Shown piece after piece: positions 1 through 35,242 of a stretch of DNA of 64,000 bases. The position numbers and the translations under genes are program-made. The notes below the pieces were generated by a model, which ran no database searches, had not been told where the DNA came from, and was given only the letters and a program-made list of their open reading frames with translations. The DNA lies in NCBI GenBank assembly GCA_003164035.1, contig PLRS01000114.1:37110-101109 (forward strand), given 5' to 3'. The DNA comes from Bryobacterales bacterium (GTDB lineage: Bacteria > Acidobacteriota > Terriglobia > Bryobacterales > Bryobacteraceae). Each line of letters starts with the position of its first letter. Position 1 is the first letter of the stretch.

Positions 1-390
1 TTCGGCGAAGTAGACGCCCGCATTTGCCGTGCCCTCGGTTGTGTGGGTTACGTCACCAACGGCGCGGTTCGCGATCTTGATGCCATCGACGCGCTGGGTT
101 ATCATCTTTTCGCTGGTTCGATTTCCGTTTCACACGCCTACGCGCACGTCGTCGATTTCGGAGGCCCTGTGGAAATTGGCGGCCTACGCGTCGCTCCCGG
201 CGACTTGTTGTTTGGCGATCGCCATGGCGTTCTCTCCCTGCCATCGGCCGCAGTCCCGCGGCTCCCCGATCTGGCCGAGCAAGTGCTAGCCGAGGAGCGG
301 GCGCTGTTCCAACTATGCCAGCCCGACAAGTTCTCCATCGACGCACTTGCAAACCGGATTCAGGAGATGGCGCGGAGGCAGCGATGCTAG
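1..390 (+). CDS. RraA-like family protein, 5'-truncated by window edge
   Basis: The reading frame is open from base 1, so the gene starts before the window. The visible 129 residues contain the RraA/HMG-aldolase signature: GYVTNGAVRD (Gly-x-Arg-Asp, the substrate/metal-binding region) followed by VAPGDLLFGDRHGVLSLP, equivalent to the conserved PGD-x-x-x-x-D-x-D/H-G-V-x-x-x-P block. Members are either inhibitors of RNase E or 4-hydroxy-4-methyl-2-oxoglutarate / oxaloacetate-type aldolases; the sequence does not decide between these, and most environmental members are annotated only as RraA family. The stop codon overlaps the start of the downstream efflux adaptor (ATGCTAG), so the two are probably co-transcribed, although a functional link is not obvious. 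Confidence 0.8.
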   Translation, partial: FGEVDARICRALGCVGYVTNGAVRDLDAIDALGYHLFAGSISVSHAYAHVVDFGGPVEIGGLRVAPGDLLFGDRHGVLSLPSAAVPRLPDLAEQVLAEERALFQLCQPDKFSIDALANRIQEMARRQRC

Positions 391-1604: not shown

Positions 1605-1645
1605 TTAACCGTCCGGCCGGAGCGGCCGGCAGCCAACTCTCTCTT

Positions 1646-4819: not shown

Positions 4820-6123
4820 TGCGCATCGCTACCAATCTCCCGCTAATCGCCCTCGCCTGCGCCTGTCTGGCAGCGGCCCAAACCGGCGCGCCGGTGCTCC
4901 TCACTCTTCAGGACGCCGAAGCGCTCGCTCTCAAGAACCATCCCCAGGTGCAGGCCGCCCAACACGCCGTGGCCGCCCAAGGCCAGCGCGTGGTGGAAAG
5001 CCGCGCGGCGTATTATCCCGACATCTACGGTTTGGCTACGGGCTCGGAGGCGAACAGAGACGGGCGAATCGGCGCCGGGTACCTTTCGACGTCGAGCCTG
5101 TTCAACCGTTTCGGCGACGGCATCCAGATCGATCAGTTGATCACCGATTCGGGCCGCACCCCCAACCTGGTGGCCCAGTCCAGGCTGCTGCGCAACGCCG
5201 CGGACCAGACTCTTCAGGCCACCCGCTACGACGTGCTGATGGCCGTCAACCGCGCTTATTTCGGCGTCTTGCAATCGCAAGCCACGGTAAAGGTGGCTCA
5301 GGAGACCATCGCCGCCCGCCAATTGCTGGTCGACCAGGTAACCGCGTTGGCCAATAACAAGCTGCGCTCGGAACTGGACGTGAGCTTCGCCGACGTCAGC
5401 CGGTCCGAGGCGCAACTGCTGCTGATCCGCGCGCAAGACGCAGTGCAGCGCACGTTTGCGGAGTTGACCCGCACCCTCGGCTCGCAACAGAACGCCGCTT
5501 ACCGCCTGTCCGAAGAGCCGCTGCCTCCCAGCCCGGCGACCAACGTTGAAGACCTGGTCGCACAGGCTCTCCAGAACCGTCCCGAACTGGCCGGCCTGCG
5601 CCTTTCGCGCGACGCGGCCTATCGTCTGGAGCAGGCCGAACGCGACCTCAGCCGACCCACCGTCAGCTTCGTGGCCGTGGCAGGCTATATGCCGTACATC
5701 GACCAGATCACCCTGCCGCGAGCGATCCCCGGTGAATACGAAGGCGCGGCCGTGAACGTAAGCGTGCCTATCTTCAACGGCCACCTGTTTTCGGCGCGGC
5801 GCGAAGAAGCGCACGAACGCGCCCTCGAATCCGACCAGCGAGTCCGCGACCTGGAAGACAGCATCGCGCGCGACGTCCGCGCCGCCTGGGCCTCATCGGT
5901 CACCGCCTATCAGGAGCTGGACGTTACCGCCCAAATGGTGCGTGAAGCCTCGCTCGGCATGAGCCTGGCGCAAGGCCGCTACGATATCGGGCTCTCCTCC
6001 ATCGTCGAGCTGACCCAGGCCCAGCTCAACCTGACCAGCGCCGAAATCGAAAACTTGAGCGCCAAGTACGGTTATCAGGCTCAATACGCGGAGCTGCAGT
6101 ACGCTATCGGAGCGCTACGATAA
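4819..6123 (+). CDS. TolC-family outer-membrane efflux channel
   Basis: A 434-residue outer-membrane factor completing the tripartite pump. A signal peptide (residues 1 to about 20, ending ...CACLAAAQ) is followed by two copies of the OEP repeat: the first begins LTLQDAEALALKNHPQVQAAQHAV and the second includes VEDLVAQALQNRPELAGLRLSRDAA. Long amphipathic helices end in YDIGLSSIVELTQAQLNLTSAEIE, a typical C-terminal OEP motif. The start codon overlaps the pump stop (TGATG), so translation is coupled and subunit stoichiometry can be balanced. No local repressor gene is adjacent, so control of the operon is not evident here. Confidence 0.93.
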   Translation: MRIATNLPLIALACACLAAAQTGAPVLLTLQDAEALALKNHPQVQAAQHAVAAQGQRVVESRAAYYPDIYGLATGSEANRDGRIGAGYLSTSSLFNRFGDGIQIDQLITDSGRTPNLVAQSRLLRNAADQTLQATRYDVLMAVNRAYFGVLQSQATVKVAQETIAARQLLVDQVTALANNKLRSELDVSFADVSRSEAQLLLIRAQDAVQRTFAELTRTLGSQQNAAYRLSEEPLPPSPATNVEDLVAQALQNRPELAGLRLSRDAAYRLEQAERDLSRPTVSFVAVAGYMPYIDQITLPRAIPGEYEGAAVNVSVPIFNGHLFSARREEAHERALESDQRVRDLEDSIARDVRAAWASSVTAYQELDVTAQMVREASLGMSLAQGRYDIGLSSIVELTQAQLNLTSAEIENLSAKYGYQAQYAELQYAIGALR

Positions 6124-19430: not shown

Positions 19431-21641
19431 TTACCCCTCCACCCTTGCGCAGGCGATGACGGCTTGGCCCAGCGACAGGCCGCCGTCGTTGGGCGGGACT
19501 TGGGATTGCCAATACACTTCGAAGGCGGCGCCCTCCAGGCCGGCTACGGTAGCTTCCAGCAGACGCATGTTTTGAAAGCTGCCGCCGCTCAGGCAGACGC
19601 GGTGGAGTCCGTCGGTGTGGCGCACCTGGTTGCAGGCCGCGACAATGGCGCCCGCCAACGTATGGTGGAACCGCGCGGCCAGGCTGGCAACGCCGTCGCC
19701 GCGGCCGAGGCCGGCAATCAAGGCGCGGATGGTTTCGCGCAGATCGATTTCCTCGCCGCACAGCTCGAAGCCGAAGGCGGTGCTATCGTCGCCGGCTATC
19801 GCTTCCAGTTCCATGGCGGCTTCGGCTTCGTAGCGGCTCTCCAGGCACACCCCCAGCAGGGCGGAAACGGCGTCGAACAGGCGTCCGCAGGAAGAAGTAT
19901 CCACGGTCTGGAAGCGGCGGCCTATCATGGTCGAGACCACCCGCATGCGGCGCTCGTCCACATCGGCCAGCGCGGGCGCATCCGCCGGACCGAGGCCGGC
20001 GTCGCCGAGGTAAGCCAGCGCCGCGCGCCACGGCTCGCGCACCGCCGTATCGCCTCCGGCCAGCGGGATATAGCGCAGGTGAAAGCGGCGTTCGAAGCCG
20101 GCGTAATCGCAGACCAGTATTTCGCCGCCCCAGATGGCGCCGTCGGTGCCGTAGCCGGTGCCGTCGAACGCCACGCCGATCGCCTTGCCTTCCAGGCGAT
20201 GCTCCGCCATGCAACTGGCGGCATGGGCATGATGATGCTGCACGCCGATCGCCGGCAGGTTCATTTCGAAAGCGGCACGAGTGCTGAGGTAACCGGGATG
20301 AAGATCGTGAGCCACGGCGCACGGTTTCACCCGGAAGAAACGCTGCATGTGATCGAGGGTCTCGCGAAAAAAGACCAGGGTTTCGTAGTTTTCCAGGTCG
20401 CCGATGTGCTGGCTCAGGATGCCGTAGTGGCCGGTGGTGAGGCAGAAGGTGTTCTTGAGTTCGCCGCCGGCGGCCGCAAGCGCGGGCAGCGGACGGCCCA
20501 GGTCGATGGGCGCCGGGGCAAAGCCGCGGGACCGCCGCAGTACCACCGGCCGGCCGCGGAACAAGCGCACCACCGAATCGTCCACAGCGGTGCGGATGGG
20601 GCGGTTGTGAGTCACAAAGCGGTCGGCAAGCTGCCGCAGGCGCGACAATTCCTCTTCCCGGCTCACGATCGGCTCTTCGCTCAGGTTGCCGCTGGTCATG
20701 ACGAGCGCCCGAAATTGGCCGTCAGCGAAAAGCAGGTGATGCAGCGGCGTAGAGGGCAGCATCACGCCGAGGTCGGGGACGCCGGGCGCGACACAGGGTG
20801 AAACAACGGGCGAGATCACCGCCATCGGCCGCCTCCGCAGCAGCACGATGGGACGGCGCGGGCCGGTCAGCTCGCGCGCCGCTTCGTCGTCCACAAAACA
20901 AATCGCGGCGGCGTCTTCCAGGGTGCCGACCATCAGGGCGAAAGGCTTGTTGCCTCGCCGCTTGCGTTCGCGCAGCAGGCGCACCGCGCCGTCGCTCGAG
21001 GCGTCGCAGGCCAGGTGATAGCCGCCCAGACCCTTGATGGCCACGATTTGCCCTTCGCCGAGCCAGCCGCGCACCTCCGCCAGGGCCGCCGAAATCCGCG
21101 GGCCGCATTCGGCGCAGGCGTTCGGCTGGGCATGGAAACGGCGGTCGCCGCAGTCGCGATATTCGGCTTCGCAGGCGGCGCACATGCGGAAGCCGGCCAT
21201 GGTGGTGGCGGCGCGGTCGTAAGGGACGTCCTGAATGATGGTGTAGCGCGGGCCGCAATTGGTGCAGTTGGTAAACGGGTAGAGATAGCGGCGGTTGGCG
21301 GGATCGGTGAAGTCGCGCAGGCAGTCGTCGCAGGTGGCGATGTCCGGAGGGACCAGGGCGAAATCTCCCACCGGCCGCGCGCTTGGGCGGATCTCGAAAC
21401 TGGTTTCGCCGGCCGGCGGCAGGTCCGAAACGTCGATTTCGGCAATCCGCGCCAGCGGCGGGCATTCGGTGCGAAGCCGCTCCAGGAAAACGCCGGTCTC
21501 GCCGCCCTCGGCTTCAATTTCTACCCCGGCCTCGGTGTTGCGGACGAAGCCGGCGACGCCGAGTTTGCGCGCCAGGTTCCGGACGAACGGCCGGAAGCCA
21601 ACCCCCTGCACGGTGCCGCGAATTCGGATTTGTTTGCGCAC
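19431..21641 (-). CDS. hypF: Carbamoyltransferase HypF (NiFe-hydrogenase maturation)
   Basis: A 736-residue cytoplasmic enzyme using carbamoyl phosphate and ATP to make the cyanide ligand precursor for NiFe-hydrogenase centres, passed to HypE. Domain order: acylphosphatase (RIRGTVQGVGFRPFVRNLAR, residues 5-24), two zinc fingers (CDDCLRDF... NCTNCGP and CAACEAEYRDCGD... ACAECGP), a YrdC-like nucleotide-binding domain (GGYHLACDASSDGAVRLLRERKRR) and a Kae1-like domain (HHHAHAASCMAEH, FDGTGYGTDGAIWGGE). All parts are present. No other hyp or hydrogenase gene lies in the window, so the partners must be elsewhere. Confidence 0.96.
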   Translation of the reverse strand: MRKQIRIRGTVQGVGFRPFVRNLARKLGVAGFVRNTEAGVEIEAEGGETGVFLERLRTECPPLARIAEIDVSDLPPAGETSFEIRPSARPVGDFALVPPDIATCDDCLRDFTDPANRRYLYPFTNCTNCGPRYTIIQDVPYDRAATTMAGFRMCAACEAEYRDCGDRRFHAQPNACAECGPRISAALAEVRGWLGEGQIVAIKGLGGYHLACDASSDGAVRLLRERKRRGNKPFALMVGTLEDAAAICFVDDEAARELTGPRRPIVLLRRRPMAVISPVVSPCVAPGVPDLGVMLPSTPLHHLLFADGQFRALVMTSGNLSEEPIVSREEELSRLRQLADRFVTHNRPIRTAVDDSVVRLFRGRPVVLRRSRGFAPAPIDLGRPLPALAAAGGELKNTFCLTTGHYGILSQHIGDLENYETLVFFRETLDHMQRFFRVKPCAVAHDLHPGYLSTRAAFEMNLPAIGVQHHHAHAASCMAEHRLEGKAIGVAFDGTGYGTDGAIWGGEILVCDYAGFERRFHLRYIPLAGGDTAVREPWRAALAYLGDAGLGPADAPALADVDERRMRVVSTMIGRRFQTVDTSSCGRLFDAVSALLGVCLESRYEAEAAMELEAIAGDDSTAFGFELCGEEIDLRETIRALIAGLGRGDGVASLAARFHHTLAGAIVAACNQVRHTDGLHRVCLSGGSFQNMRLLEATVAGLEGAAFEVYWQSQVPPNDGGLSLGQAVIACARVEG

Positions 21642-23265: not shown

Positions 23266-24291
23266 CTACGCCACGACGATCTCGCTACCATACCCCGGCC
23301 CAGGCAGTCCCCCGGCCAGCGACAGATTGGCCGGCCGATACGTCCCGTCTATCGGACAGCGCACCTCCACGCTATTGGCCAACGTCGCGTTCTTAGCGAT
23401 CTCCCTCGACTTTGGGAACAGCCACAATGGACTCCAGGTCTCGTGCCTCGTGTCCAGCGCATATTTCTTGTCGATGGGGCTTGGGAATCGAGCGGCGACG
23501 CCGGGGTCGAACGACAATCCCAGCGCCTGCGCTTTGTTGATTATCCAACTTAGCGATATGTCGGACAGCGTGGTTCCCGTGCCCGAATCGTCGACGTATC
23601 CGCCGCCAACATCGCCATGGACGCCGCAGAAGTACACCTGATCGACGATTTGTCCGGCGGCGAACGGCCCGGTCCAAAGCGTCGCGGGAAACTCCTGCCG
23701 GCGCTCGTCGATCGCGACCGCGTGGTAGGCGTTCAAAACGTCCGGGTGCAGACCCGTATCGAGGAACTCATATAGCAGCGGATCGACTCCGCCGACGAGC
23801 GCCGGTATCCCGAGTGACCCCACCGTGTCCCACACTCCCACCATGGTGATCTTTGCGTCCACCAGCCCATAGGCGCCCAGCGCCGCCAGAATCGCGTCCC
23901 TCCGGTCTTTGCTTCGATACGCTTCGAATGCCGCATTCACCAGGTTGGTATCGGGATTTTTCGTCGGAAGCCCGCAGATGGCAATCATCCCCGCCAGACT
24001 GCGGGCCGTATAGGCGCCACGGCTGAAGCCGAACAGGAAAACCTCGTCTCCCTCCTCGTAGACGCTCGAAATCGCCGAATACCCATCCTTGATCTTCTGG
24101 AAAAGCCCGGTGCCGACCGCTCCGCCCAGCAGCCTTTCGATCGGCGTTCCGTCCGCGCCGACGCCATCGTCGTAAAACGGGAATTGTTCGCCGGGGATGG
24201 CGACGATCGCCTTGAAGATTTTGTAAACATTGGTGTTGCCGTCCGTCCCCTCCCACGTACCATCCGAGCAAAATGCAATTCGTCGACTCAT
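23266..24291 (-). CDS. DUF2235 alpha/beta-hydrolase
   Basis: A 341-residue protein of the DUF2235 family (T6SS phospholipase-effector-like alpha/beta hydrolases and many uncharacterised members). It opens with IAFCSDGTWEGTDGNTNVYKIFKA, the conserved FxDGTxN-type start. The nucleophile elbow GFSRGAY puts Ser at residue 90, GVWDTVGSLG carries the Asp, and VYFCGVHGDVGGGY carries the catalytic His. There is no signal peptide and no VgrG/Hcp gene nearby, so a secreted-effector role is not supported. It lies 168 bases downstream of the GMC flavoprotein gene in the same direction, with a palindromic repeat between. The substrate is unknown; a lipid or ester is most likely from the family. Confidence 0.88.
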   Translation of the reverse strand: MSRRIAFCSDGTWEGTDGNTNVYKIFKAIVAIPGEQFPFYDDGVGADGTPIERLLGGAVGTGLFQKIKDGYSAISSVYEEGDEVFLFGFSRGAYTARSLAGMIAICGLPTKNPDTNLVNAAFEAYRSKDRRDAILAALGAYGLVDAKITMVGVWDTVGSLGIPALVGGVDPLLYEFLDTGLHPDVLNAYHAVAIDERRQEFPATLWTGPFAAGQIVDQVYFCGVHGDVGGGYVDDSGTGTTLSDISLSWIINKAQALGLSFDPGVAARFPSPIDKKYALDTRHETWSPLWLFPKSREIAKNATLANSVEVRCPIDGTYRPANLSLAGGLPGPGYGSEIVVA

Positions 24292-24379
24292 GCTTAGCTC
24301 CTGTCTATTAGTGAACTGCTTGACAACGGGGTCATGGTTACTAAGTACTCAATTTAGAAATTGCGGTCGCCTATGAACT

Positions 24380-24445
24380 ACCGCTCCCTCACGGTCGCGG
24401 CTCGGTTTCGTGTGTTTTCCGAGCCGCGACCGTCAGGGAGCGGTT
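24380..24445. repeat. Inverted repeat, family A
   Basis: Left arm 24380-24405 (ACCGCTCCCTCACGGTCGCG...) and right arm 24419-24445 are reverse complements with a 13-base loop. It lies between the GMC gene stop and the DUF2235 gene start, so it may separate their expression or stabilise the upstream message. Confidence 0.8.
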
Positions 24446-24459
24446 GATCGCGCACCTGG

Positions 24460-27400
24460 CTAGCTACCAAACGACCCGAGAGGATCGAATTCGCGCTGAA
24501 CGAACTGCGCGGTGAAGGCGATGAAACGCATTCGCGCCTGAAATTGAATCGTCGGATCGCTTGTCCCGGTGATCTGAAAAGACCCCAGGAAGCCGGCCAG
24601 ATTCTCCACCGCGGCCCAATCTTCGAACGTCTGAAACCTCAGCAGGGCCGTGCCCGTTTCCTTGTCGCCGCCGGGTTGTTGCTGGTAGACGTGGCAATAG
24701 AGCGTCGTGTAGTCGGTGAGCAGGTCGCCCACGTCTTTCTCCATGTATTTCACTCCTTCGAAGCGGAAACGGTTGCCGCCGGCGAGGAATTCGATATGGT
24801 AATTCATCTCGGCTTCGCCCGTGGCCAGGTTCACTTTCAGGTAATGAAACCGGCTGTTCGCCGAGTCGATCGGGAAAGTGGCCGGTCCCTGACCCTGGAA
24901 CTGTCCGAATGAGATGGTTCCGCCGATCTGTGCCTCATGCTCATAGCCGTCGACGAACTCGTTGACGTCCCGAATCGTCATGGTGGCTTCGAAGCTCGAG
25001 GTCACCGCGCCGGGCGGGTTGCCGCTGGCTGGAATTCGCTGCGCGATGGTAAGGTCCCCGGCGCGGCCGGGAGCGGGAGTGCCTTCTCCCGGGAAATACC
25101 AGCCGACCATCTGCTCCTTGAAAGTCATGCCGACGCCATCCGGCAATTGTGTGTCGAGAAACGGGCGCAATAGCGTGTTAGTGGGCAGTTGCTTCCCGGC
25201 GATTCGCGTCAGCATGTAGTAGAAGCCGAATTGCCCGCCGGCTTCGGTGTGAAAGAGGCCGAACGAGGAGTTAGCCACCAGCTCGGCGGTGGCGCCCGGC
25301 AGCGTGGCGATGTACTTGCCGACCATGAAATCCGCGGTCACTTTGCGAATCTCGTCGTGAAACGGGGTGAAGTCGTTCAACTGGAAATGGTCTTTCAGAA
25401 AGCTCGGGACGATCAATCCCTCGATGAGACCGATAAGTTGATAGCGCGCCTCGAACCGCCCATCCGGCAAGTTACTGAACTGCAGATAGGCAATTCCGCT
25501 TGCATGATTCGCGTTGGAAATGACATCCATGCGCCAAACGCCGTTCAGATCGGCGGCGTCGGGCGCCGTACCGGTGGCGTACAGCGCGTCATGATCGTCA
25601 TCGGTCATCTGGCCAAAGCCGTAGAGCCGGGACATGGGAAAAGTCAGAACGCGCGCGCCGTGCGGATACTTACCCAGGTACACGCGCCCGATCAACAAGT
25701 CCTGATTGACGATCTTCAGGATATCGTAAAAGCCCTGCCAGGGCGGATCCAGATAGCGAAGAAGAACGTAGTTGCCCGGCTCCAGAGTGCCGTCGCTGTG
25801 TCCCACTTCCACGGTCACTTCTTCCAGGCTGTTGCGCGCCTGGATGTGCCCATCGGTGTCGCTGGTAACACCGGTGTGTTGTCCATTCGGCTGCTTTTGA
25901 AATTGCTTCTTGAAGCCCGTGAAAATGGCCGAAGACATGGCGTTCAGCACGTTTCCCCGCGGGAAGAAGCCCTTCCAGTAGCGGTCGTTGTAAATGGTCT
26001 CGTTAGCGATGTCGATTGTCGGATTGCCGCCCTGGTTGACAATGGTATCGATCCCCATGGTGGGACAGCGGCGGAACAGAACTTCGAGTTCGCCTTCGTT
26101 ATAGCCGATGGCGTCGAGCGCGCTCAGGCCCGCCATGCTGACCGGTTTCGCCGGTTCGGGATAGGCCGCGCCCTGGAGCTGCTGAATCTTGCGCTCGACA
26201 AAGCGCTCGGTCAGCGCCGAGATGGTCAGAAAAGGATTGACGCCGAGCGCGCTCGGAATGATGGACCCATCGGTGACGTAGAGTCCCTGGTGTACGCTGC
26301 CGTCGCCGGCGAACACGCGCCCGTAGACGTCGACCGCGCCTTCCAGGTTATCGTCGCCCATCGGGCATCCGCCCAAAGGATGGGCTGTAATCAAATGCCG
26401 CAGCTTGAAAAAGCTCCAGGTGGGATTGGAGATGAAGCTGGCGCTGAGCGCGCGCGCGTTGCGGCGCAGTTCTTCGTTCATTCGCGTGAAGATCTGCTGC
26501 TGGCCGGCCTGGTCCCAGGAAATCTGGATGCGGCCATCGGGCTCAATGAGGGGTTTGTCGAACAGGATGAGGCCGCGGGCATTGTCCTGGCCCATCACCA
26601 AATAAAGCATGGTATGGTTCAACGCGCCGTTCGGATCGTGCTCGCGGCCGGCGGGATCGAGGTCGCGCAGCAGGCGCGCGCGTTGGTCGGCCTCGTTTCC
26701 GGTGACCGTATCCTGGCCCTGAATCGCGGCGAAAACCGCCTTGGCGGCGGCAACCGAGGCGCTCGGGAAGGAAAAGTCTTCGATTGCCATGCGCTTCGAT
26801 TCGGACAGCGTACCGTTGTAGCGAACCAGCCCGACAATGTTCGGCCCCGGCGATGGCGAATCGCCCGCCGCCGGTTTTTGCTCCGCGTTATAGCCCAGCA
26901 CATCGGTCTCATACCCGCCGTTGTAGGCTAACCCGAAAAAGTCGCCATTGCTGCTGAACTTAGTGCCCAGGGCCGGCGCCACCGAAAGACCGTGCATCTC
27001 CGAACGGAGCAGAATCTCGGTGGAATTCAGAGAACCGGCGGAGAGAACCACTTCGCCCGCGTTCAGCGTGAAGCTCTCGCTGCCGCCGCCCGTCTTTACA
27101 TAACTCCCGTGAATGATCCAACCGCCCGAGGCGCCCTTCTCCAGCCACTCTACCTTGGCCTGGGTCAGAATGGTCGCGCCCGCCCGCTGCGCCATCGGGA
27201 GGTAATTCATGTAAAGGGTATTCTTCGCTCCCACGTTGCAACCGGTGACGCAGTTACCGCAGTCGATGCACGGCTTCTGCTCGACGCCATAGGGATTCAA
27301 GCCGTCAATGGTGAAATTGACGACTATATTGAGCGGCTGCACCGTAGTGCCGATTTCCACCGCCCGGCGATTAAGCGCCTGAACCTTGGCGAGCGAGAGC

Positions 27401-27834
27401 GCATTCGGATGCGGATTGGCCGCCAGCATCGCCCGGGCGCGGTCGTAGTAAGGCAGCAGCGCGTTGTACTCAATCGCGGACGGCCAACTGAACTGCTGGA
27501 ACACCTCCTCATCCGGGACGATGGCCACGTTGGCGTTGATCAGTGAGGTGCCGCCTAATCCTGAGCCTTTGATTACGGAGATATCCTGGTAATTGAGCAG
27601 CTCATACAACCCCAGCGGATTCAGGTCGCCGCGAGTCGCACCTGCCACGTCCAGCGGCGCTTCCGGGTATTCGCCCGGCTGCCATTCCTTGCCTCGCTCC
27701 AAAATGCAGATGGAGGGTTTCGGGTTCAGGTCGGCCGTGGCCAGCCGTGCCGCCGTGATCGCTCCTCCATAACCCGATCCGATCACCACGATGTCGTACG
27801 CACTCTTACGCTGCGCCCAGGGTGTCGATAACAT
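24460..27834 (-). CDS. GMC-family flavoprotein with CxxCxxCxxxC motif and long C-terminal module
   Basis: A 1124-residue protein. Residues 1 to about 560 are a GMC oxidoreductase of the cholesterol-oxidase-like type: dinucleotide fold VIGSGYGGAITAARLA (residues 17-32), second FAD motif IKGSGLGGTSLINANV, and C-terminal HPLGGCPMGDDN... VNPFLTISAL. Residues 189-199 read CIDCGNCVTGC, a cysteine spacing like a 4Fe-4S site that recurs in this GMC branch. The last ~560 residues are not part of the GMC fold. Its end (FRFEGVKYMEKDVGDLLTDY, then TTLYCHVY) recalls a region of actinobacterial GMC-hydrolase fusions. No signal peptide. It is preceded by a VAO-type flavoprotein gene with only 15 bases between. 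Substrate unknown; a sterol- or terpenoid-like alcohol is one possibility. Confidence 0.88.
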   Translation of the reverse strand: MLSTPWAQRKSAYDIVVIGSGYGGAITAARLATADLNPKPSICILERGKEWQPGEYPEAPLDVAGATRGDLNPLGLYELLNYQDISVIKGSGLGGTSLINANVAIVPDEEVFQQFSWPSAIEYNALLPYYDRARAMLAANPHPNALSLAKVQALNRRAVEIGTTVQPLNIVVNFTIDGLNPYGVEQKPCIDCGNCVTGCNVGAKNTLYMNYLPMAQRAGATILTQAKVEWLEKGASGGWIIHGSYVKTGGGSESFTLNAGEVVLSAGSLNSTEILLRSEMHGLSVAPALGTKFSSNGDFFGLAYNGGYETDVLGYNAEQKPAAGDSPSPGPNIVGLVRYNGTLSESKRMAIEDFSFPSASVAAAKAVFAAIQGQDTVTGNEADQRARLLRDLDPAGREHDPNGALNHTMLYLVMGQDNARGLILFDKPLIEPDGRIQISWDQAGQQQIFTRMNEELRRNARALSASFISNPTWSFFKLRHLITAHPLGGCPMGDDNLEGAVDVYGRVFAGDGSVHQGLYVTDGSIIPSALGVNPFLTISALTERFVERKIQQLQGAAYPEPAKPVSMAGLSALDAIGYNEGELEVLFRRCPTMGIDTIVNQGGNPTIDIANETIYNDRYWKGFFPRGNVLNAMSSAIFTGFKKQFQKQPNGQHTGVTSDTDGHIQARNSLEEVTVEVGHSDGTLEPGNYVLLRYLDPPWQGFYDILKIVNQDLLIGRVYLGKYPHGARVLTFPMSRLYGFGQMTDDDHDALYATGTAPDAADLNGVWRMDVISNANHASGIAYLQFSNLPDGRFEARYQLIGLIEGLIVPSFLKDHFQLNDFTPFHDEIRKVTADFMVGKYIATLPGATAELVANSSFGLFHTEAGGQFGFYYMLTRIAGKQLPTNTLLRPFLDTQLPDGVGMTFKEQMVGWYFPGEGTPAPGRAGDLTIAQRIPASGNPPGAVTSSFEATMTIRDVNEFVDGYEHEAQIGGTISFGQFQGQGPATFPIDSANSRFHYLKVNLATGEAEMNYHIEFLAGGNRFRFEGVKYMEKDVGDLLTDYTTLYCHVYQQQPGGDKETGTALLRFQTFEDWAAVENLAGFLGSFQITGTSDPTIQFQARMRFIAFTAQFVQREFDPLGSFGS

Positions 27835-27849
27835 AAGAAAACCTCCAAT

Positions 27850-29205
27850 TCAGTTTCCGAGCAGTGCCCGGAAATAATCGTTGAGAAGCCGGCCCTGGGG
27901 ATCGTAAGTCTTGCGTGCGGCGGCGAACGCAGTCAACCGGTCACCCAGCGCCTTTTGCGCCTGTGCGGGGGTGATGCCATAAGTCTGATTAAACAACGGA
28001 ATGCCGCCCTGGTCGCTCGAAAACTGGTTGTAAGCCACCAGGAACTGGTCCCATCCCGGATTCGCGGTGGACACCGGGTCGATGGTCATCACGTCGCCAT
28101 CCCAGGAATAGGAAAGCAGCGAGTTCTGGTCCTTCGCGACGCGATAGCCGACGAAGAGCATGTCAACGCGGTAACCGTTCTGCTTATAATACTGTTGGCA
28201 AAACTGAAAGCAGGCCCGCAGGACAGCCGGATAAGTCGCCTCGGGGAACGCCCAAAGGCTGAAGGTGTAGCGGCTCGCCCCGCCTACTGGCGGGTAACGG
28301 ATGATCTGGTCGGTGGCGACCGTGTTCCCGCTCTGAATCAGGTTCTCCAGCTTCCAGCGCCATAGGGCGTTGAATCCGTCGATCACTTTGTACCGCACCG
28401 TCTTATCCGGGATGTCCTTTCCGGCGTTGGCGCAAACCAGCGGCCCGGCGCTGGCCCACATATAATTGCGCAGCGGCCAGACGGCGCGATTGGGATCGCC
28501 GGTCGCGGTGGGATCGTACTTCCGGAATTCCACCGTGATCAGGTTGTCGAAGGGGAAGACGTAGAACATCAGCGATTCGCCGCCGGCTTTCAGCGCGGGC
28601 AACTGCTGGATGAAATCGTCGAGTTTGAAGGTCTTGTGACGCACCGCCATAGGCTGGATCGGGCGAACGCGGAAAGTGGCTTCACAGACGATCCCGAACG
28701 TTCCGTAACTGGACCGGACCTTCTGCATCAGGTCGGGCTGATCGTCGGTCACTTCCAGGAAATCGCCCGAAGGCAGCGCCATCTTGATCCGTGTAACATA
28801 GGAGCCGACCTGGCCGTACTCGCCGGGCATCGACGAGTCCTTGGTCCCCGCGCAGGCCGCGCTGCCGACCGAGAGACTGCCGATCTCGGTATTGACATAG
28901 AACTGCAAATTCTGCTTTTCCAGCTCTTTGGCCACGTCGATGTAGAGCGCGCCCGCCTCCGCCGTCACCGTGCCGTTCGAGATGTCCAGAATCTTATTCA
29001 TGCCGGACATCTTGAGGATGGTGCCGCCGTCGACCACGGCGCACGGCGCGGTGGAATGGTTGGAGCCAACCGCCCGCACCGGAGACGGATACTGGGCGGG
29101 GTTCTTCAAGACCTTGACCACGTCATCGGCGGAAGCCGCTTCCACCACCGCCTGCGCGTGGGAAACCAGGTCCCCAAACCAATTGGTGACGATAATGTCG
29201 CTCAT
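27850..29205 (-). CDS. VAO-type FAD-linked oxidoreductase (aldonolactone/alditol oxidase-like)
   Basis: A 451-residue flavoprotein. The FAD-binding half has VRAVGSNHSTAPCAVVDGGTILKMSGMNKIL (with the GSxHS element), GSLSVGSAACAGTKDSSMPGEYGQVGSYV, and YGTFGIVCEATFRV. The C-terminus YDPQGRLLNDYFRALLG is typical of sugar-lactone oxidases (FAD/arabinono-lactone oxidase family). There is no signal peptide. It is 40 bases downstream of the 724-residue unknown gene and 15 bases upstream of the GMC gene, forming an operon of two different flavoenzymes. Reaction probably oxidation of a sugar or lactone alcohol; the real substrate cannot be read from sequence. Confidence 0.86.
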   Translation of the reverse strand: MSDIIVTNWFGDLVSHAQAVVEAASADDVVKVLKNPAQYPSPVRAVGSNHSTAPCAVVDGGTILKMSGMNKILDISNGTVTAEAGALYIDVAKELEKQNLQFYVNTEIGSLSVGSAACAGTKDSSMPGEYGQVGSYVTRIKMALPSGDFLEVTDDQPDLMQKVRSSYGTFGIVCEATFRVRPIQPMAVRHKTFKLDDFIQQLPALKAGGESLMFYVFPFDNLITVEFRKYDPTATGDPNRAVWPLRNYMWASAGPLVCANAGKDIPDKTVRYKVIDGFNALWRWKLENLIQSGNTVATDQIIRYPPVGGASRYTFSLWAFPEATYPAVLRACFQFCQQYYKQNGYRVDMLFVGYRVAKDQNSLLSYSWDGDVMTIDPVSTANPGWDQFLVAYNQFSSDQGGIPLFNQTYGITPAQAQKALGDRLTAFAAARKTYDPQGRLLNDYFRALLGN

Positions 29206-29245
29206 CGAAAAGTCCCCTCCTTGCCCCTTCGGATCGATGATTTTG

Positions 29246-31420
29246 TTACGACCCGGCCGTGGCCGCCAGCACGCGCTGTTTCGTCCGGACGAGCTGCGGC
29301 CCGACGATCAAAATGCTTGCGCCGGCCCGGCGGCCCGACGCCTCGTCCATGGCGATCAGGCCCCAGGGCTCGCCGAACTGTTCGCTGGTGGTGGAGGCCA
29401 CCTGCTTCAAATGGGCCGCCAGGTCCTGCCGCAAGCTCTGAAATTCCGGATCGTCCGGCGCCGCCGCCGGATGCTGGCCCAACCATTTGCCCATCGCCGC
29501 CAGCCGTTGGCCGGCGCCGGCCATGGCGCCAGCCCACCACATGATGGCCGTATAGTCTGCTGTGATGGCTCCCACGAGAGGCGCCGGTACGCCCGGAAAT
29601 AGCTGTGCAAAGCCCGGCTGGCCTTGAGCCTTCAGCCGGCCCCAGAGATCGTCGTCGATGGCGGGCCCGCGCCGGACGGCATCGTCGTCGCCCTCATTCA
29701 CCAGCAATTGGACCGCGGCGCGTCCCATGTTTTCGTAGAACGGTTCCGGCACGGGCGCGCCCGTCGGGTCGAGAAACAGAGCCGCCGCCAGGCCGCTGTC
29801 GTAATCGGTGCGGGCATGAATCATGGTGCGGCCGAAATCGCCAACGCCGGCCGGCAAGGTGGCGTCCTCGCCGGAGAACAGCCCGAGGGCCGCGCCAACG
29901 CCGAGGTCGCGCTGCATCTGGTCCCGGCCGGTAGCGTTTTGCAGATCGAAAAAATCGTGGCTGCAGCGCAACGCCGGGCCGCCGATTTGCCGTTGCGATC
30001 CCTGGTAAGCCGCCGTCAGCAGGAACGATTCCGCCATCACGTGGCGCAGTTTCTGGGTGTCGGCCCCAAAATTCACCGCCGTCGAACGAATTCGCTGGGC
30101 CGTAACCTTGTCGGTGATGACCAGCGCCCCGGTCGCCGGCTCGAACAGCACCTCGCCGCTGGAGGCCAGAGTCGAGATAGAGCCGAAATTGAATATCCCC
30201 AGCAGGTTCACGTCTAACTGAATCCCGGCCTTTCGCGCATTGCCCCAAACGCTCTGAACCTCCGTGATCCCGGCCAGGGCGCCGCCATGCAATCCGCTCA
30301 AATCGCCGGTGAGCGCCTGGTTGAGCGCCTGGCGCGAACCCGGCGTCAGGGCGGCAACTTCGATATCGTACAGAAACGCGGCGTCGGTGGACTCGGTCAC
30401 GCTGATCGCGGCGGAAAGCGCCAATTCCAGCTTGCGATCGACGGCTGCCTTCACGGCACCTTGAATGGCGCTGATCTGGTCGGGGGGAAGCCCCGCCTTT
30501 TGGAGCTCGGCGAGGTCGGCGGTGGCGCTGGAGCTGATGGCCCCGATGATAGTGGAAAACAGATCGGTAGTTCCGAAGCCCGCGCTCACGCTCGCGCCCG
30601 CCGTTGCGGTCACGGCTAACTCAGCCGCTTTTTCCCGGTACCAGCCCAGGTGCACGTGCCCCGCGGCCTGTTTTTGCGCGCAGATTTGGAAGGTGCCCTT
30701 CAACTCGAAGGATGCCCCAACCTGCGCCACCCCGCCGGCGGTCACCGACAGCGCCGGCAGCAGCGCGGGAAGCGCCACCGAAGCCAGGGGATTGGTGACG
30801 GCGAGCAGGTTGGCCGTGGCGGAAAGCTTGAGTGTCCCGGTTCCCGTCGCCGTGGCCACCGCGCCGTCCGGCAGTGAGGCCAGGTCGTCGGCGCTGGCTG
30901 GAATAAGGAAACTGCCCACGGTTTGTTCGACCGCGTCCAAAAGCGTAATCCCTTGCTTCAGCGGAAAATTCCGATAGTTCCGGATGTCGATGGTCTCGCC
31001 AGGGCCCACTCCGAATTGGAGAAGTCCCGCATCCGGTCCAACCGCAACCCCCACCGACGCCTGGACGCCCAGGCCGACGTAGCAGGTTCCCGCCGCGATC
31101 CCGATGTCGCCCGAATACACATCGGGCAGGTTCGCGACCGTCGGCGTTGGTTGAATCAATTCCAGCGACCCGTGCGCGCCGGCCGAAATCGAAAGGGCGT
31201 TTGCGCCCGGCCCGATCGATACACTGTTAGCGAACGAGAGGCCGCTGGTGAGCGCCGTCAGCGCCGGTTGATCCAGCGTGAGTCCTCCCGCCTTCGAAAA
31301 ATCGCCATTGGTCAGCCGTAGCGCCGGCAGTTGCTGAAAGTATTTCAGCAGCGAGGAGAAGGGGGCCAGTTGAATGTCGGCGTCCAGCCCGAGATCGTCC
31401 GTCAGTTTGATCGTCGCCAT
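29246..31420 (-). CDS. Large unassigned protein, first gene of flavoenzyme operon
   Basis: A 724-residue protein I do not recognise. There is no signal peptide, no long hydrophobic helix and no catalytic motif I can name. The first ~400 residues are Ala/Gly/Val/Thr-rich, alternating beta-like (GTGTLKLSATANLLAVTNPL, AELAVTATAGASVSAGFGTT), suggesting a beta-sandwich or barrel. The last ~300 residues look helical with Trp-containing stretches (TAIMWWAGAMAGAGQRLAAM, GKWLGQHPAAAPDDPEFQSL). It begins MATIKLTDDLGLDADIQLAP after GAGG ten bases upstream, and is divergent from the phosphoesterase gene. It could be a scaffold or binding partner of the two flavoproteins encoded behind it; this is inference from operon position. 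Confidence 0.72.
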   Translation of the reverse strand: MATIKLTDDLGLDADIQLAPFSSLLKYFQQLPALRLTNGDFSKAGGLTLDQPALTALTSGLSFANSVSIGPGANALSISAGAHGSLELIQPTPTVANLPDVYSGDIGIAAGTCYVGLGVQASVGVAVGPDAGLLQFGVGPGETIDIRNYRNFPLKQGITLLDAVEQTVGSFLIPASADDLASLPDGAVATATGTGTLKLSATANLLAVTNPLASVALPALLPALSVTAGGVAQVGASFELKGTFQICAQKQAAGHVHLGWYREKAAELAVTATAGASVSAGFGTTDLFSTIIGAISSSATADLAELQKAGLPPDQISAIQGAVKAAVDRKLELALSAAISVTESTDAAFLYDIEVAALTPGSRQALNQALTGDLSGLHGGALAGITEVQSVWGNARKAGIQLDVNLLGIFNFGSISTLASSGEVLFEPATGALVITDKVTAQRIRSTAVNFGADTQKLRHVMAESFLLTAAYQGSQRQIGGPALRCSHDFFDLQNATGRDQMQRDLGVGAALGLFSGEDATLPAGVGDFGRTMIHARTDYDSGLAAALFLDPTGAPVPEPFYENMGRAAVQLLVNEGDDDAVRRGPAIDDDLWGRLKAQGQPGFAQLFPGVPAPLVGAITADYTAIMWWAGAMAGAGQRLAAMGKWLGQHPAAAPDDPEFQSLRQDLAAHLKQVASTTSEQFGEPWGLIAMDEASGRRAGASILIVGPQLVRTKQRVLAATAGS

Positions 31421-31715
31421 GTGATTCCTCGATTCCCTCTCCTCCAATGAACTGGACGTGTCAAGATCGTACACCAAAACGAATGGAAACAAAATGGGAA
31501 AATCCGCGTTCCGGTAACCCCCCGGTGTCTTGGGATGGAGCATCCAGAAACGGGAGCTAAAGTACCCGTTTGACCTGTCACTTACTGATTCCTGGTGAGA
31601 GAAGCGGTACTGAGTTCCCGTTTTTTCCCGAGCTGGAGGTTGAATGTCCGGCCAAACCGTGACGGTCGGGTGTATACTCTACACGAATTGGGGATGCCAG
31701 AAAGGATCTACTAAA
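31421..31715. promoter_or_regulatory. Divergent promoter region of the flavoenzyme/phosphoesterase cluster
   Basis: About 295 bases separate the two divergent genes. On the plus strand TATACT at 31673-31678 could be a -10 box for the phosphoesterase gene, but no good -35 is seen. On the minus strand TTGACA (complement of about 31459-31464) lies about 40 bases before the 724-residue gene, without a clear -10. A shared regulatory region is plausible; no operator palindrome is obvious. Confidence 0.35.
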
Positions 31716-33110
31716 ATGAACCTACCGCTCAGCCTTCACAGTGGCAAGCTGTCGCTGTTTCAATCCGCCGTGAATAAGATCATTCAGAAAAAGGGCACGT
31801 CCGCAACCCACCTTTCCGAAGACCAGCCCATGATGCAGCAGGCTAACACCGTGCTGCAGGCCGCGGACGCAGGGCAGGATCTGGGCCAGTTTCTGGGCAC
31901 CCCGCTCGAATGCGCCAGCCTGACGGTCCAGGCCGCCCTTGCGTTCGCGGCCGGTGACAGCGCCAAGGAGGCTGAGATCCGCGCGCAGCTCGTGGACAGC
32001 CCGTGCGATCCCGGCTGGGTCACGGTGCTGGCGGCCTATGAGGTCTACTATGCCGGCGGCCAAAGCCCGAAATACACCAACTGGACCAACATCGGAGATT
32101 TCGTCTACCCCATCCCGGACACGGGCCGCAATGGCGATCAACTGACGGTCGCCGTGCTGGCCGATTGGGGTACTGGCGATAACCTCGTAGCTAAGAACAG
32201 CCTGGAGGCGATCTTCCGGTTCAAGCCCGATCTGATTATCCACCTGGGTGACATCTATTACGCCGGCACGGCCGACGAATGCACCGCCAATTTCCTGAAT
32301 TACATGGTGGCCGCGTGCAAGGCTAACTACCCGGTGCCGATTTATAACCTGGCCGGCAACCACGATTACTACAGCGGCGGCGCCGCCTACTACAACCTGC
32401 TAACCCAGCTCAACCCCCAGTGCGCGCCGCCGGGCACGCCCGTTCAGGGCGCCAGTTTCTTCTGCCTGCGCAACCGCGACTGGCAGATTCAGGGCATGGA
32501 CACGGGATACGGCGACCACGATGTTTTCACGGTCGCAAACGACATCACCCAACTGCAGCCGAGCGAGGTGGAGTGGCACCAGGACAAGATTGCCACCGCC
32601 GCCGGGCGGAAGATCGTGATGCTGTCCCACCATCAGCTCTATTCCGCTTTCGAGAACATCGGCAGGCAGACAAATAATTACTACAATCCCAACTTGCTGG
32701 CCAACTTTAAGGACGCCATGAATGCCGGGGCGATCACCGCCTGGTACTGGGGCCACTCGCACATTCTGGAACTCTACGGAGCGTTTCCGCTCCTCAACGC
32801 CAGCCAGCCCAAGGGACGCTGTATCGGCTACTCCGCGTTTCCGATGATGAAGGCCGGGGACCCCTACAAGGTGCTCGTTTCCGCCGACAAACTGCCGCCG
32901 CTGGGAGACCCGCCGTTTCTCGACACCACCGGGGACGTGTACGATCACGGTTTCATGATCCTGACGCTGGCCGATACCTTCGCCCAGGCGGATTATTACC
33001 AGACCCCCGGCGACGGTGCGCCGGCTCCCAGTCCCCTCAACCCCAAGTTTTCGGAAAATCTCTGGGCCGCCCAACCGTCGCAGGTGCAGACTTCGTCCGC
33101 GCCGGCCTGA
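31716..33110 (+). CDS. Calcineurin-like metallophosphoesterase
   Basis: A 464-residue protein. Residues ~1-120 are helical and unassigned; from residue 145 the metallophosphoesterase blocks appear in order: ADWGTGD (Asp150), HLGDIYYAG (Asp179), AGNHDYY (214-219), LSHHQLYS (His305/306) and YWGHSHILELYG (346-357). This set coordinates two metal ions. The Tyr after GDIY resembles purple acid phosphatases. No signal peptide is evident, so it is probably cytoplasmic unless exported by another route. ATG 31716 follows AAAGGA by nine bases; an in-frame start upstream lacks this. It diverges from the flavoenzyme operon and may act on a phosphorylated intermediate of the same process. Confidence 0.88.
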   Translation: MNLPLSLHSGKLSLFQSAVNKIIQKKGTSATHLSEDQPMMQQANTVLQAADAGQDLGQFLGTPLECASLTVQAALAFAAGDSAKEAEIRAQLVDSPCDPGWVTVLAAYEVYYAGGQSPKYTNWTNIGDFVYPIPDTGRNGDQLTVAVLADWGTGDNLVAKNSLEAIFRFKPDLIIHLGDIYYAGTADECTANFLNYMVAACKANYPVPIYNLAGNHDYYSGGAAYYNLLTQLNPQCAPPGTPVQGASFFCLRNRDWQIQGMDTGYGDHDVFTVANDITQLQPSEVEWHQDKIATAAGRKIVMLSHHQLYSAFENIGRQTNNYYNPNLLANFKDAMNAGAITAWYWGHSHILELYGAFPLLNASQPKGRCIGYSAFPMMKAGDPYKVLVSADKLPPLGDPPFLDTTGDVYDHGFMILTLADTFAQADYYQTPGDGAPAPSPLNPKFSENLWAAQPSQVQTSSAPA

Positions 33111-33186: not shown

Positions 33187-34620
33187 ATGCTATCCTGTTT
33201 CCGGATGTATCATCGGCAGCGTAAAGTCCGTGTTTTGTTTGGACTATCGGATATCATCCTGGTCACGCTCGGGTTTGAAGCCGCCTACCAGACGCGTAGC
33301 GTGCTCCAGCTTGAAAACCTCTTTTTTCTAACCGTCGAGCGCCAGGCTCTGCTGCTGGGTTTTTCGCTTCTGGTGTGGGTCGCGGTGGCGCTGTGGCTGG
33401 AAATTTACGACCGGCTGGATTCCGGAAATCCCAGGATCGTTCTGCGCGACTCGGCGCGCCAGGCGGCCTACGCGTGGCTTGCGGTGGTGGTGTTCGAATT
33501 CACGCTGCGCATGGAACTGAGCCGCCCCTTCGTACTGCTGTTCACGGTCTATAGCTGGGCTCTGCTGCTGCTGTTCCGGCTGACGATGGGAAGAATGGCG
33601 GGAGCGATCCGGCGGGAATTCACGGCGCCCCGCCACATCATGGTGGTAGGGACCAACCCGCGCGCGCTGCGGCTGGCCGAGGCTCTGGAAAGCTCGGCCG
33701 ATTACGGCATCCGCCTGGCCGGGTTCCTGAGCGAGCCGGCGGAACGGGAGGCACCCGCCTCGATCGAGCTGGGCGCGGTGTATGCGGTTCGGCCGATTCG
33801 CGACTTGCCCTCCATCCTGCAGCGCCAGGTGGTGGATGAAATCGTTTTCGCGGTGGGCAGCGAAAGCCTCGCGGAGTTGGAAGAGGCTTTCCTGTTGTGC
33901 GACGAAGAAGGCGTGCGCACCCGCATCGCGGTGGATTTTTTTCCCCATATCAACAGTACGGTTTCGCTCGACCGGTTCGAATCCACCCCGCTGCTGACAT
34001 TTTCCGCCGCACCGGAGGACGACCTGCGTCTGATGGCGAAGCGGGCCATCGACGTCGTGCTGGCGGCGGCCGGCCTGCTGGTGCTGGCGCCGTTCATGCT
34101 GGTGGTGGCGCTTCTGATTCGCCTGACTTCGCCGGGGCCGGCGATTTTTCGCCAGGTGCGCTGCGGCTTGAACGGGCGCCGCTTCACCTTCTATAAATTC
34201 CGGTCGATGGTGGAGAATGCCGAGGAGCTGAAGGCCGCGTTGGCGCACCTGAATACCCGCGGAACGGCTTTCAAGATACCCGACGATCCGCGCCTCACCG
34301 CGGTGGGCCGCTATCTGCGCAAGTTTTCCATCGACGAATGGCCGCAACTGTGGAACGTGTGGAAAGGCGACATGTCGCTGGTGGGCCCGCGCCCGGCCAT
34401 TCCGAGCGAAGTGGACCGGTACCTGCGCTGGCAGCGGCGCCGCCTGCGGATGCGTCCGGGGCTGACCTGCCTGTGGGCGGTAGCCGGACGCGACAAAGTG
34501 GATTTCGACACCTGGATGAAGCTGGACATGCAGTACATTGATAATTGGTCGCTGGCACTCGACTGGAAGATTCTGTTGCAAACCATTCCGCGCGTGCTGA
34601 CTGGCCACGGAGCCAATTGA
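33187..34620 (+). CDS. Undecaprenyl-phosphate sugar phosphotransferase (WbaP/WcaJ-like)
   Basis: A 477-residue polyisoprenyl-phosphate hexose-1-phosphate transferase that starts exopolysaccharide or O-antigen repeat units. The N-terminal half has four to five membrane helices (residues ~12-140) and a Rossmann-like CoA-binding fold region (HIMVVGTNPRALRLAEALESS). The C-terminal catalytic domain begins at the helix DVVLAAAGLLVLAPFMLVVALLIRL and has GPAIFRQVRCGLNGRRFTFYKFRSM, KFSIDEWPQLWNVWKGDMSLVGPRP and the tail AVAGRDKVDFDTWMKLDMQYIDNWSL. Start could be ATG 33187 or 33205. No glycosyltransferase cluster lies nearby, so it may act as a stand-alone initiator. Confidence 0.92.
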   Translation: MLSCFRMYHRQRKVRVLFGLSDIILVTLGFEAAYQTRSVLQLENLFFLTVERQALLLGFSLLVWVAVALWLEIYDRLDSGNPRIVLRDSARQAAYAWLAVVVFEFTLRMELSRPFVLLFTVYSWALLLLFRLTMGRMAGAIRREFTAPRHIMVVGTNPRALRLAEALESSADYGIRLAGFLSEPAEREAPASIELGAVYAVRPIRDLPSILQRQVVDEIVFAVGSESLAELEEAFLLCDEEGVRTRIAVDFFPHINSTVSLDRFESTPLLTFSAAPEDDLRLMAKRAIDVVLAAAGLLVLAPFMLVVALLIRLTSPGPAIFRQVRCGLNGRRFTFYKFRSMVENAEELKAALAHLNTRGTAFKIPDDPRLTAVGRYLRKFSIDEWPQLWNVWKGDMSLVGPRPAIPSEVDRYLRWQRRRLRMRPGLTCLWAVAGRDKVDFDTWMKLDMQYIDNWSLALDWKILLQTIPRVLTGHGAN

Positions 34621-34627
34621 TCCTGAT

Positions 34628-35242
34628 ATGCACCTGATTCCCACCGAGGAAGAAGTCGTCGCCGTGCTGCGCGACACCGGCGCATTGCGCGACGGCCATT
34701 TCGAATATCCCAGCGGCATGCACTCGAACGAACTGCTGCAGGTTCCGCTGGCGATGCGCTATTCCAAGCACCAGCGGATGATGGCGGTCGGGCTGAGCCG
34801 GCTGCTGCGCAATAATCCGGAGATTCGCGCCATGGCGGCCGAGGTATCGATCGTGACGCCGATGACCGGCGGATTGCCGGTGGCCTACGGCATTTGCGAA
34901 GCGCTGCGCGCGCGGCAGGTGTATTGGGCCGAGCGCGGGCACGACGCCGAGTCCTTGCGGTTTCGCCAGTTTCTGACGCCGGTCAAAGGCGAGCCGGTGA
35001 TTATCGTGGACGACGTGCTTCGGTCGGGCGCCAAGCTGCAGGAGCTCAAGCAGCTTCTGGAGTCGTTCCAGGCGCAGGTAGTGGCGCTGGCGGTGGTGAT
35101 CTATCAGCCCAATCCCGAAACCGCCAGCTTCGGCAGCCTGCCGCTCTATTATCTGGCCAAGCTGGATGCCCGCTATTACGTCAACGGCGAGCGGTGCGAC
35201 CAATGCCGCCGCGGCGTGGCTGCCGAGAAAGTGTGGGTTTGA
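34628..35242 (+). CDS. PyrE-like phosphoribosyltransferase
   Basis: A 204-residue type I phosphoribosyltransferase. The PRPP-binding loop is VIIVDDVLRSGAKLQELKQLL (residues ~122-142), and the N-terminus (EEEVVAVLRDTGALRDGHFEYPSGMHSNE) is orotate-phosphoribosyltransferase-like. The C-terminus carries an unusual CDQC pair (GERCDQCRRGVAAEKVWV), not part of classic PyrE, which might bind a metal. It could make OMP in pyrimidine synthesis or be a divergent paralogue. It starts seven bases after the sugar-phosphate transferase gene and overlaps the methyltransferase gene (TGATG). Confidence 0.82.
   Translation: MHLIPTEEEVVAVLRDTGALRDGHFEYPSGMHSNELLQVPLAMRYSKHQRMMAVGLSRLLRNNPEIRAMAAEVSIVTPMTGGLPVAYGICEALRARQVYWAERGHDAESLRFRQFLTPVKGEPVIIVDDVLRSGAKLQELKQLLESFQAQVVALAVVIYQPNPETASFGSLPLYYLAKLDARYYVNGERCDQCRRGVAAEKVWV

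Follow-up and report, generated by a model that had tools for sequence, protein, structure and literature searches.

Three closely spaced genes on the minus strand of a 64,000-nucleotide stretch of DNA from a Bryobacterales bacterium (the whole stretch, hereafter the window, belongs to a contig of 101 kb in an 8.0 Mb genome) encode an unassigned 724-residue protein (BIG), an oxidase of the VAO type linked to flavin adenine dinucleotide (FAD) and here called VAO, and a 1124-residue GMC flavoprotein (GMC). Together they almost certainly represent a real, flexible gene set of the Acidobacteriota, since their proximity recurs in several gene orders and orientations. We tentatively propose that the set specifies a cytosolic module that would oxidise the alcohol groups of a lipophilic substrate, probably one resembling a sterol or an isoprenoid. 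A first-pass annotation of the window had read the trio, a divergent calcineurin-like phosphoesterase gene (MPE) and a DUF2235 hydrolase gene as one five-gene system, an interpretation that is partly supported, as recurrent proximity is found for BIG, VAO, GMC and the phosphoesterase family but not for DUF2235. All five genes lie where that annotation had placed them, and the list of open reading frames (ORFs) reproduces exactly the two gaps within the trio, 40 bases between BIG and VAO and 15 between VAO and GMC. MPE starts 223 bases from the 724-residue start of BIG, in the opposite direction, and the DUF2235 gene lies 168 bases beyond GMC. The features are as follows.

29246..31420, minus strand: BIG, ORF of 724 residues, Pfam-unassigned, first gene of the minus-strand trio
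27850..29205, minus strand: VAO, FAD-linked oxidase resembling alditol/xylitol oxidases, 451 residues (PF01565 and PF04030)
24460..27834, minus strand: GMC, flavoprotein of 1124 residues (PF00732 and PF05199)
27238..27270, minus strand: predicted iron-sulphur (Fe-S) ligands of GMC, residues 189-199, C-x2-C-x2-C-x3-C, from cysteine conservation, alignment to FAD-glucose dehydrogenase and weak ferredoxin-model matches
24463..26169, minus strand: C-terminal lobe of GMC, residues 556-1124, no PDB sequence match, weak DUF4334 likeness
31644..33110, plus strand: MPE, calcineurin-like phosphoesterase of 488 residues (PF00149), divergent from the trio
23266..24291, minus strand: DUF2235, Tle1-like alpha/beta hydrolase of 341 residues (PF09994, E 3.4e-67)
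31421..31643, no strand: stretch between BIG and MPE, presumed promoter region

The linkage was assessed by annotating the flanking ORFs at 99 loci (numbered L), window included, of which 35 carry BIG; L096, L097 and L099 (the same places as L032, L033 and L038) and L036 and L039 (the same as L197 and L196) were left out, and the GMC tree and counts comprise ORFs of more than 800 residues, fragments such as that at L195, where VAO stands beside a 499-residue GMC piece, being excluded. Eleven genomes have BIG and GMC no more than 4 kb apart (the window's, L032, L033, L034, L035, L038, L043, L051, L098, L100 and L109), and VAO is also in the group in nine of these, the exceptions being L051, where the contig ends inside GMC, and L109. 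Among 43 different GMC ORFs the partner found within 5 kb is VAO in 14, BIG in 11, MPE in nine and a RoxA-like cytochrome in four. The gap between BIG and GMC is at most 92 bases in four of the 11 genomes (one an overlap), 1.1-1.5 kb in six, where VAO, MPE or some other gene intervenes, and 3.7 kb in L035. The orders seen are BIG-VAO-GMC, BIG facing GMC-VAO, MPE-VAO-GMC facing BIG, VAO-GMC-MPE facing BIG, and BIG-GMC. In a sample of 150 genomes from the window's order, BIG is present in 28, of which 12 have a listed GMC match and six of these 12 have both within 4 kb, against a rough chance estimate of 0.2% each. All 14 VAO-linked GMC proteins fall inside one supported 19-row set of the GMC tree (SH-aLRT 100), a tree on which the BIG label changes six times (at least five changes are forced), a count equally low in 1 of 500 shuffles. 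Identity to the window proteins at linked loci is 62-89% for GMC and 64-92% for VAO, but falls to 30% for BIG (L051 and L100) and is 28-33% for MPE, so that closely related flavoenzymes are accompanied by differing types of BIG and of MPE. At L032 (12129-13689) the VAO gene, which stands next to BIG and GMC, is split between two overlapping ORFs through a frameshift or an error of assembly.

This same variability is what lends some weight to a looser interpretation, by which oxidoreductase, phosphatase, protease, BIG and the further family C6 (below) would be accessory genes that gather in variable genome spots and do not act together. Gene content and order vary strongly, every gene is also found alone, some copies have subtilases or a protein with a TIR-like N-terminus in their vicinity, and the 66 scanned BIG neighbours other than GMC, VAO, BIG and MPE have no Pfam family in more than two proteins (the scan took in 66 of 102 listed ORFs, MPE rows and some second neighbours being set aside). 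However, members of the same families stand directly side by side again and again, with short gaps and in differing orders, which the sharing of spots alone does not predict, and we consider such a loose association improbable, though a serious contender.

The GMC protein has both domains of its family (PF00732, 60.7 bits against a cut-off of 23; PF05199, 51.5 bits against 24.6), a conserved glycine-rich stretch at residues 20-26 (the Rossmann FAD motif) and a catalytic lobe, residues 1-555, whose best PDB sequence match is cholesterol oxidase (4u2l, E 1.1e-26). The catalytic His/Asn pair, His485 and Asn533, is aligned with the cholesterol oxidase residues and is unchanged in all 44 rows (43 of them different); Glu352, kept in 43 of 44 rows, may correspond to the isomerisation glutamate of cholesterol oxidase. 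The likeness to cholesterol oxidase (4u2l, 1b4v) has clear limits, as the window protein is twice as long, residues 300-482 are unaligned, four of its cysteines have no cysteine partner, and the protein reaches 176 bits against the cut-off of 850 set for the cholesterol oxidase equivalog NF058674.

Those four cysteines, Cys189, Cys192, Cys195 and Cys199, are invariant in all 44 rows (43 different). Three of them, Cys189, Cys195 and Cys199, align with Cys212, Cys218 and Cys222 of FAD-glucose dehydrogenase, a match that is weak for that stretch (E 0.0027). In the crystal structure of that enzyme these three bind a [3Fe-4S] cluster, from which electrons move on to a cytochrome with several haems (PMC6719666). 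Next among the PDB matches of the cysteine stretch is ferredoxin 1dur (E 0.029), and ferredoxin models match the motif weakly (Pfam PF13183, E 0.015; NCBIfam NF058577, E 6.8e-4). The fourth cysteine gives the motif a ferredoxin-type spacing. We therefore predict that GMC likely binds an Fe-S cluster via the four cysteines, and, because this invariant motif aligned with [3Fe-4S] ligands accompanies an invariant His/Asn pair, that it likely passes electrons to a protein acceptor and not to oxygen. The window protein thus has in common with the Burkholderia FAD-glucose dehydrogenase the GMC scaffold, the His/Asn pair and three cysteines at Fe-S ligand positions, but differs in its fourth cysteine, in an extra C-terminal lobe of 570 residues, and in its partners, which are BIG and VAO with no multihaem cytochrome gene beside GMC. 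As to a hitchhiker small subunit carrying an export signal, no cluster protein has a hydrophobic N-terminus, and no search was aimed at such a subunit.

The C-terminal lobe (residues 556-1124) finds nothing among PDB sequences up to E 5. Among 33 GMC members three show a weak DUF4334 match (best E 0.016) and three an Abhydrolase_1 domain (best E 1.8e-11), the latter presumably being the three distant rows. Relatives of about 1390-1500 residues repeat part of the lobe, a second partial copy being present in the long proteins of L084, L103, L104, L105, L108, L110, L112-L115, L118, L120 and L128.

The window's cluster genes include no multihaem cytochrome c gene, and two-haem RoxA-like genes occur only beside relatives. 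Such a di-haem cytochrome gene is separated by 12 bases from the GMC relative at L124 (51% identity) and at L207 (38%); at L201 and L203 the two are at most 3 kb apart:

L124:6853-8289, RoxA-like gene
L207:7308-9170, RoxA-like gene
L203:1-1863, RoxA-like gene
L201:185-1786, RoxA-like gene

All six RoxA-like cluster members have two CxxCH motifs, and PF21419 was tested in L203 (E 5e-14). RoxA itself cleaves rubber. In the window's genome two other contigs carry RoxA-like matches, one of them above cut-off, and the RoxA-like neighbours hint at the electron acceptor of the GMC group.

The second flavoenzyme, VAO, is a FAD-linked oxidase with an ALO domain (PF01565, E 1.2e-19; PF04030, E 3e-8), and matches xylitol oxidase (2vfr, E 8.4e-12) among PDB sequences. 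It shares with alditol/xylitol and aldonolactone oxidases the FAD-binding domain, aligned over residues 1-186, the motif histidine and the ALO C-terminal domain, but its best NCBIfam score is 94.5 bits against a cut-off of 292, and it stands in an operon-like pair with the GMC enzyme. VAO His50 aligns with the GHS motif of 2vfr, whose histidine we take to be the site of covalent FAD attachment, and VAO is accordingly predicted to carry covalent FAD on His50.

BIG itself has no Pfam, NCBIfam or PADLOC match. Its longest ORF is 765 residues, but we prefer the start of the 724-residue form (MATIKL, base 31420), as its first residue does not vary among 36 relatives. A search of 5.8 billion proteins gave 214 homologues; most of the best 120 are 700-740 residues long, and the few named ones among these belong to Terriglobia, Bryobacteraceae and Candidatus Sulfopaludibacter. 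The named relatives of the window BIG are Bryobacterales/Bryobacteraceae and other Acidobacteriota, and a profile of divergent members has no named match outside the Acidobacteriota among the best 120 listed, no search having been aimed at any other single phylum such as the Myxococcota. In a set of one genome for each of 84,980 species BIG occurs at 11 loci, all titled as Acidobacteriota groups, and it is present in 3 of 297 genomes drawn over the phylum, the window's own included.

Structure prediction, which the first-pass annotation had advised, gave a fairly confident model of BIG (pLDDT 80.9, pTM 0.79, the five models ranging down to 58.4) yet no significant match. In the model a beta-rich N-terminal half is followed by a helical C-terminal half, with strands at 188-212 and 229-252 (24-25 residues each) and a helix at 313-340 (28 residues). 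The long strands have one greasier face, the mean hydropathy of strand 229-252 being +1.7 against -1.4 on its other face. Comparison by Foldseek and VIA-align with the PDB, the one fold library covered, found no significant counterpart for the whole-chain model or for residues 80-452 alone, and the BIG profile against PDB sequences gave a best E of 0.62; BIG may represent a new fold. Weak matches recur to the TULIP proteins LmcA, TMEM24, E-Syt2, Mdm12 and Mmm1, none of them significant, and they are equalled or surpassed by rows to Bcl-2-like helices, uricase, OmpT and porins. DUF1439, the YceB family, matches one of 36 BIG members (E 0.022). YceB is listed among bacterial TULIP families in PMC6791001. 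The long strands, the long helix and the repeated weak matches are what the BIG model shares with TULIP lipid-binding proteins (LmcA, SMP domains, YceB/DUF1439), but no match to these is significant, and a TULIP-like, lipid-binding BIG is for us a lead and not a result.

These data underlie the module that we tentatively favour, the oxidation of a greasy alcohol by two flavoenzymes with BIG as their partner. A lipophilic substrate is suggested by the cholesterol-oxidase-like lobe of GMC, the RoxA-like cytochromes beside its relatives and the weak lipid-binding likeness of BIG. GMC, as a dehydrogenase rather than an oxygen-using oxidase, would take electrons from the alcohol to FAD, on to the Fe-S cluster on Cys189/192/195/199 and from there to an acceptor protein, either a cytochrome or a ferredoxin, whose gene would lie outside the cluster. 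VAO, with its predicted covalent FAD, would carry out a second oxidation, on a further alcohol or lactol of that substrate. BIG would hold the substrate or dock the two flavoenzymes, its long amphipathic strands and long helix suggesting a hydrophobic pocket in the model, although carriage is one of two or three options for it. MPE, where present, would strip phosphate from substrate or product. None of the five window proteins has a hydrophobic N-terminus (maximum 19-residue hydropathy in the first 40 residues 1.23), in agreement with the earlier observation that none has a signal peptide.

A bolder version of the same proposal would make BIG a new family of cytosolic lipid carriers that originated in the Acidobacteriota. 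These would deliver a greasy alcohol to a VAO oxidase and a four-cysteine Fe-S GMC dehydrogenase, as the first relay of GMC and VAO around a dedicated substrate carrier, and the substrate would be tuned by exchangeable BIG and phosphatase partners; we regard this as doubtful. Alternatively BIG could be a structural or storage protein, a shell or scaffold clustering both flavoenzymes with no lipid bound. It has no enzyme family match, its chain is rich in conserved glycines, prolines and leucines, and it also occurs without the enzymes, all of which suits such a role, but Asp622, Tyr623, Trp628 and Trp629, on one predicted helix and invariant in 36 rows, resemble a binding site. In 23 more divergent rows only Trp629 stays invariant and Asp622 nearly so, and on balance a purely structural BIG seems to us unlikely.

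MPE matches PF00149 (E 5.6e-16, 60 bits against a cut-off of 21.5) and contains the motifs DWG, GDxYY, GNHD, HH and GHxH at residues 174, 202, 238, 328 and 370, an order that we take for the purple-acid-phosphatase set; the fixed metal-binding pattern fits 20 of 28 relatives. MPE shares this motif order with purple-acid-phosphatase-like calcineurin phosphoesterases, but has no PDB sequence match at E 0.01, and its N-terminal 160 or so residues lie outside the Pfam match; an alternative start at 31716 (Met25) is possible. The family recurs near GMC or BIG as diverged copies, 28-33% identical to the window's, and in the 150-genome sample it is found in 24 genomes, in seven of them within 5 kb of BIG or GMC. 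The window MPE resembles the type found near subtilase and/or RoxA-like genes in L199, L201, L203 and L207 (33-37%), and also that of L098 (33% over residues 31-458). At L199, L201 and L202 a subtilase gene lies no more than 18 bases from the phosphoesterase, and at L206 the gap is 24 bases (PF00082 was tested in L199 and L098).

DUF2235 behaves differently. The family assignments of the first-pass annotation are borne out by Pfam and NCBIfam for this protein as for GMC, VAO and the phosphoesterase, and the 724-residue protein it left unassigned is indeed without a match; its inclusion of DUF2235 in the pathway is not supported. The window DUF2235 has no BLAST relative at the other 98 loci. 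By the Pfam model such a gene is present in four of 18 GMC genomes, the window's included, and in the other three (G135, G477 and G457, genomes being numbered G) it is on another contig, 3.4, 8.4 and 6.7 kb, respectively, from the nearest contig end. These contigs were checked because in G477 and G457 the contig that carries GMC stops shortly after that gene, and the stretches fetched hold no relative of BIG, GMC, VAO or MPE near DUF2235. Identity to the window protein is 62% in G135 and 30-33% in the other two. Homologues scattered with no shared neighbourhood were what the annotation had said would refute one system, and they are found for DUF2235 and not for the other genes. Given this lack of recurrence at 98 loci and the separate contigs in three GMC genomes we judge DUF2235 a bystander, G135 leaving slight doubt.

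The original five-gene pathway, in which a lipid or terpenoid carried by BIG would be processed successively by phosphoesterase, VAO, GMC and DUF2235, is now a poor prospect. Four of its five families do recur together, a hydrolase step is conceivable as some GMC relatives have a fused alpha/beta hydrolase domain (three of 33 members; see also L202), and G135, which has the set, also encodes the 62% identical DUF2235 protein. Nevertheless DUF2235 is not found at the other loci and lies away from the cluster genes elsewhere, and the neighbouring phosphoesterases are as distant from the window's as given above.

Fe-S-bearing GMC dehydrogenases and VAO oxidases are already known. A full-text literature search, judged by title and abstract and with most subscription journals outside its reach, found no description of the gene set, of BIG or of an Fe-S cluster in this GMC group, nor the pairing of an Fe-S GMC and a VAO with BIG, C6 and phosphoesterase. 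The analysis makes an anonymous 724-residue protein a testable partner of two flavoenzymes, predicts an Fe-S cluster in a cholesterol-oxidase-like GMC group, separates a likely bystander from the members first listed, and offers a candidate pathway for oxidation of lipid-like alcohols in Acidobacteriota, soil bacteria that are abundant but hard to grow.

A further family, C6 (about 320 residues), precedes BIG by 9 bases in L032 and by 109 bases in L038 (where it is broken or contains unread bases). It follows GMC at 16 bases in L110 and at 31 bases in L112, and in L186 it overlaps the VAO start:

L032:9026-9988, C6
L038:7742-8509, C6
L110:12558-13499, C6
L112:12654-13586, C6
L186:7427-8389, C6

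C6 has no Pfam match above cut-off, and five of six members show a sub-threshold likeness to CarboxypepD_reg (best E 0.0091). Its profile matches 56 of 250 genomes, in 12 of which it shares a contig with BIG, GMC or VAO at a distance of at most 5 kb (counted by eye); five of the 12 are alignment seeds and two are short remnants, so that seven of 50 non-seed genomes are independent. The remnants stand beside BIG in G014 and beside GMC in G111. A profile search found no C6 in the window's genome.

Near other copies, a protein with a TIR-like N-terminus is encoded beside VAO-GMC at L035:20752-22083 (PADLOC SAVED_TIR, E 2e-7), with relatives in L038 and L053, and a subtilase relative lies 10 bases from BIG in L045. 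A defence or conflict system could be read from the TIR-type cluster at these three loci and from that subtilase, but the five window proteins and C6 have no PADLOC match, and we think it very improbable.

Within the window, a promoter scan found no sigma-70-like site between BIG and MPE; the promoter and terminator scan totals are 6 sites against 2.8 expected and 10 against 9.5 expected, and the only Rfam match is a tRNA. A minus-strand ORF of 463 residues (33328-34719), lacking a Pfam or NCBIfam match, adjoins MPE and may be no gene, as a 534-residue ORF overlaps it on the opposite strand. A HypF-type hydrogenase maturation protein (PF22521 and others) is encoded near the cluster at 19431-21641, and an RND efflux operon, comprising a membrane-fusion protein, an AcrB-type pump and an outer membrane channel, occupies positions 315-6123.

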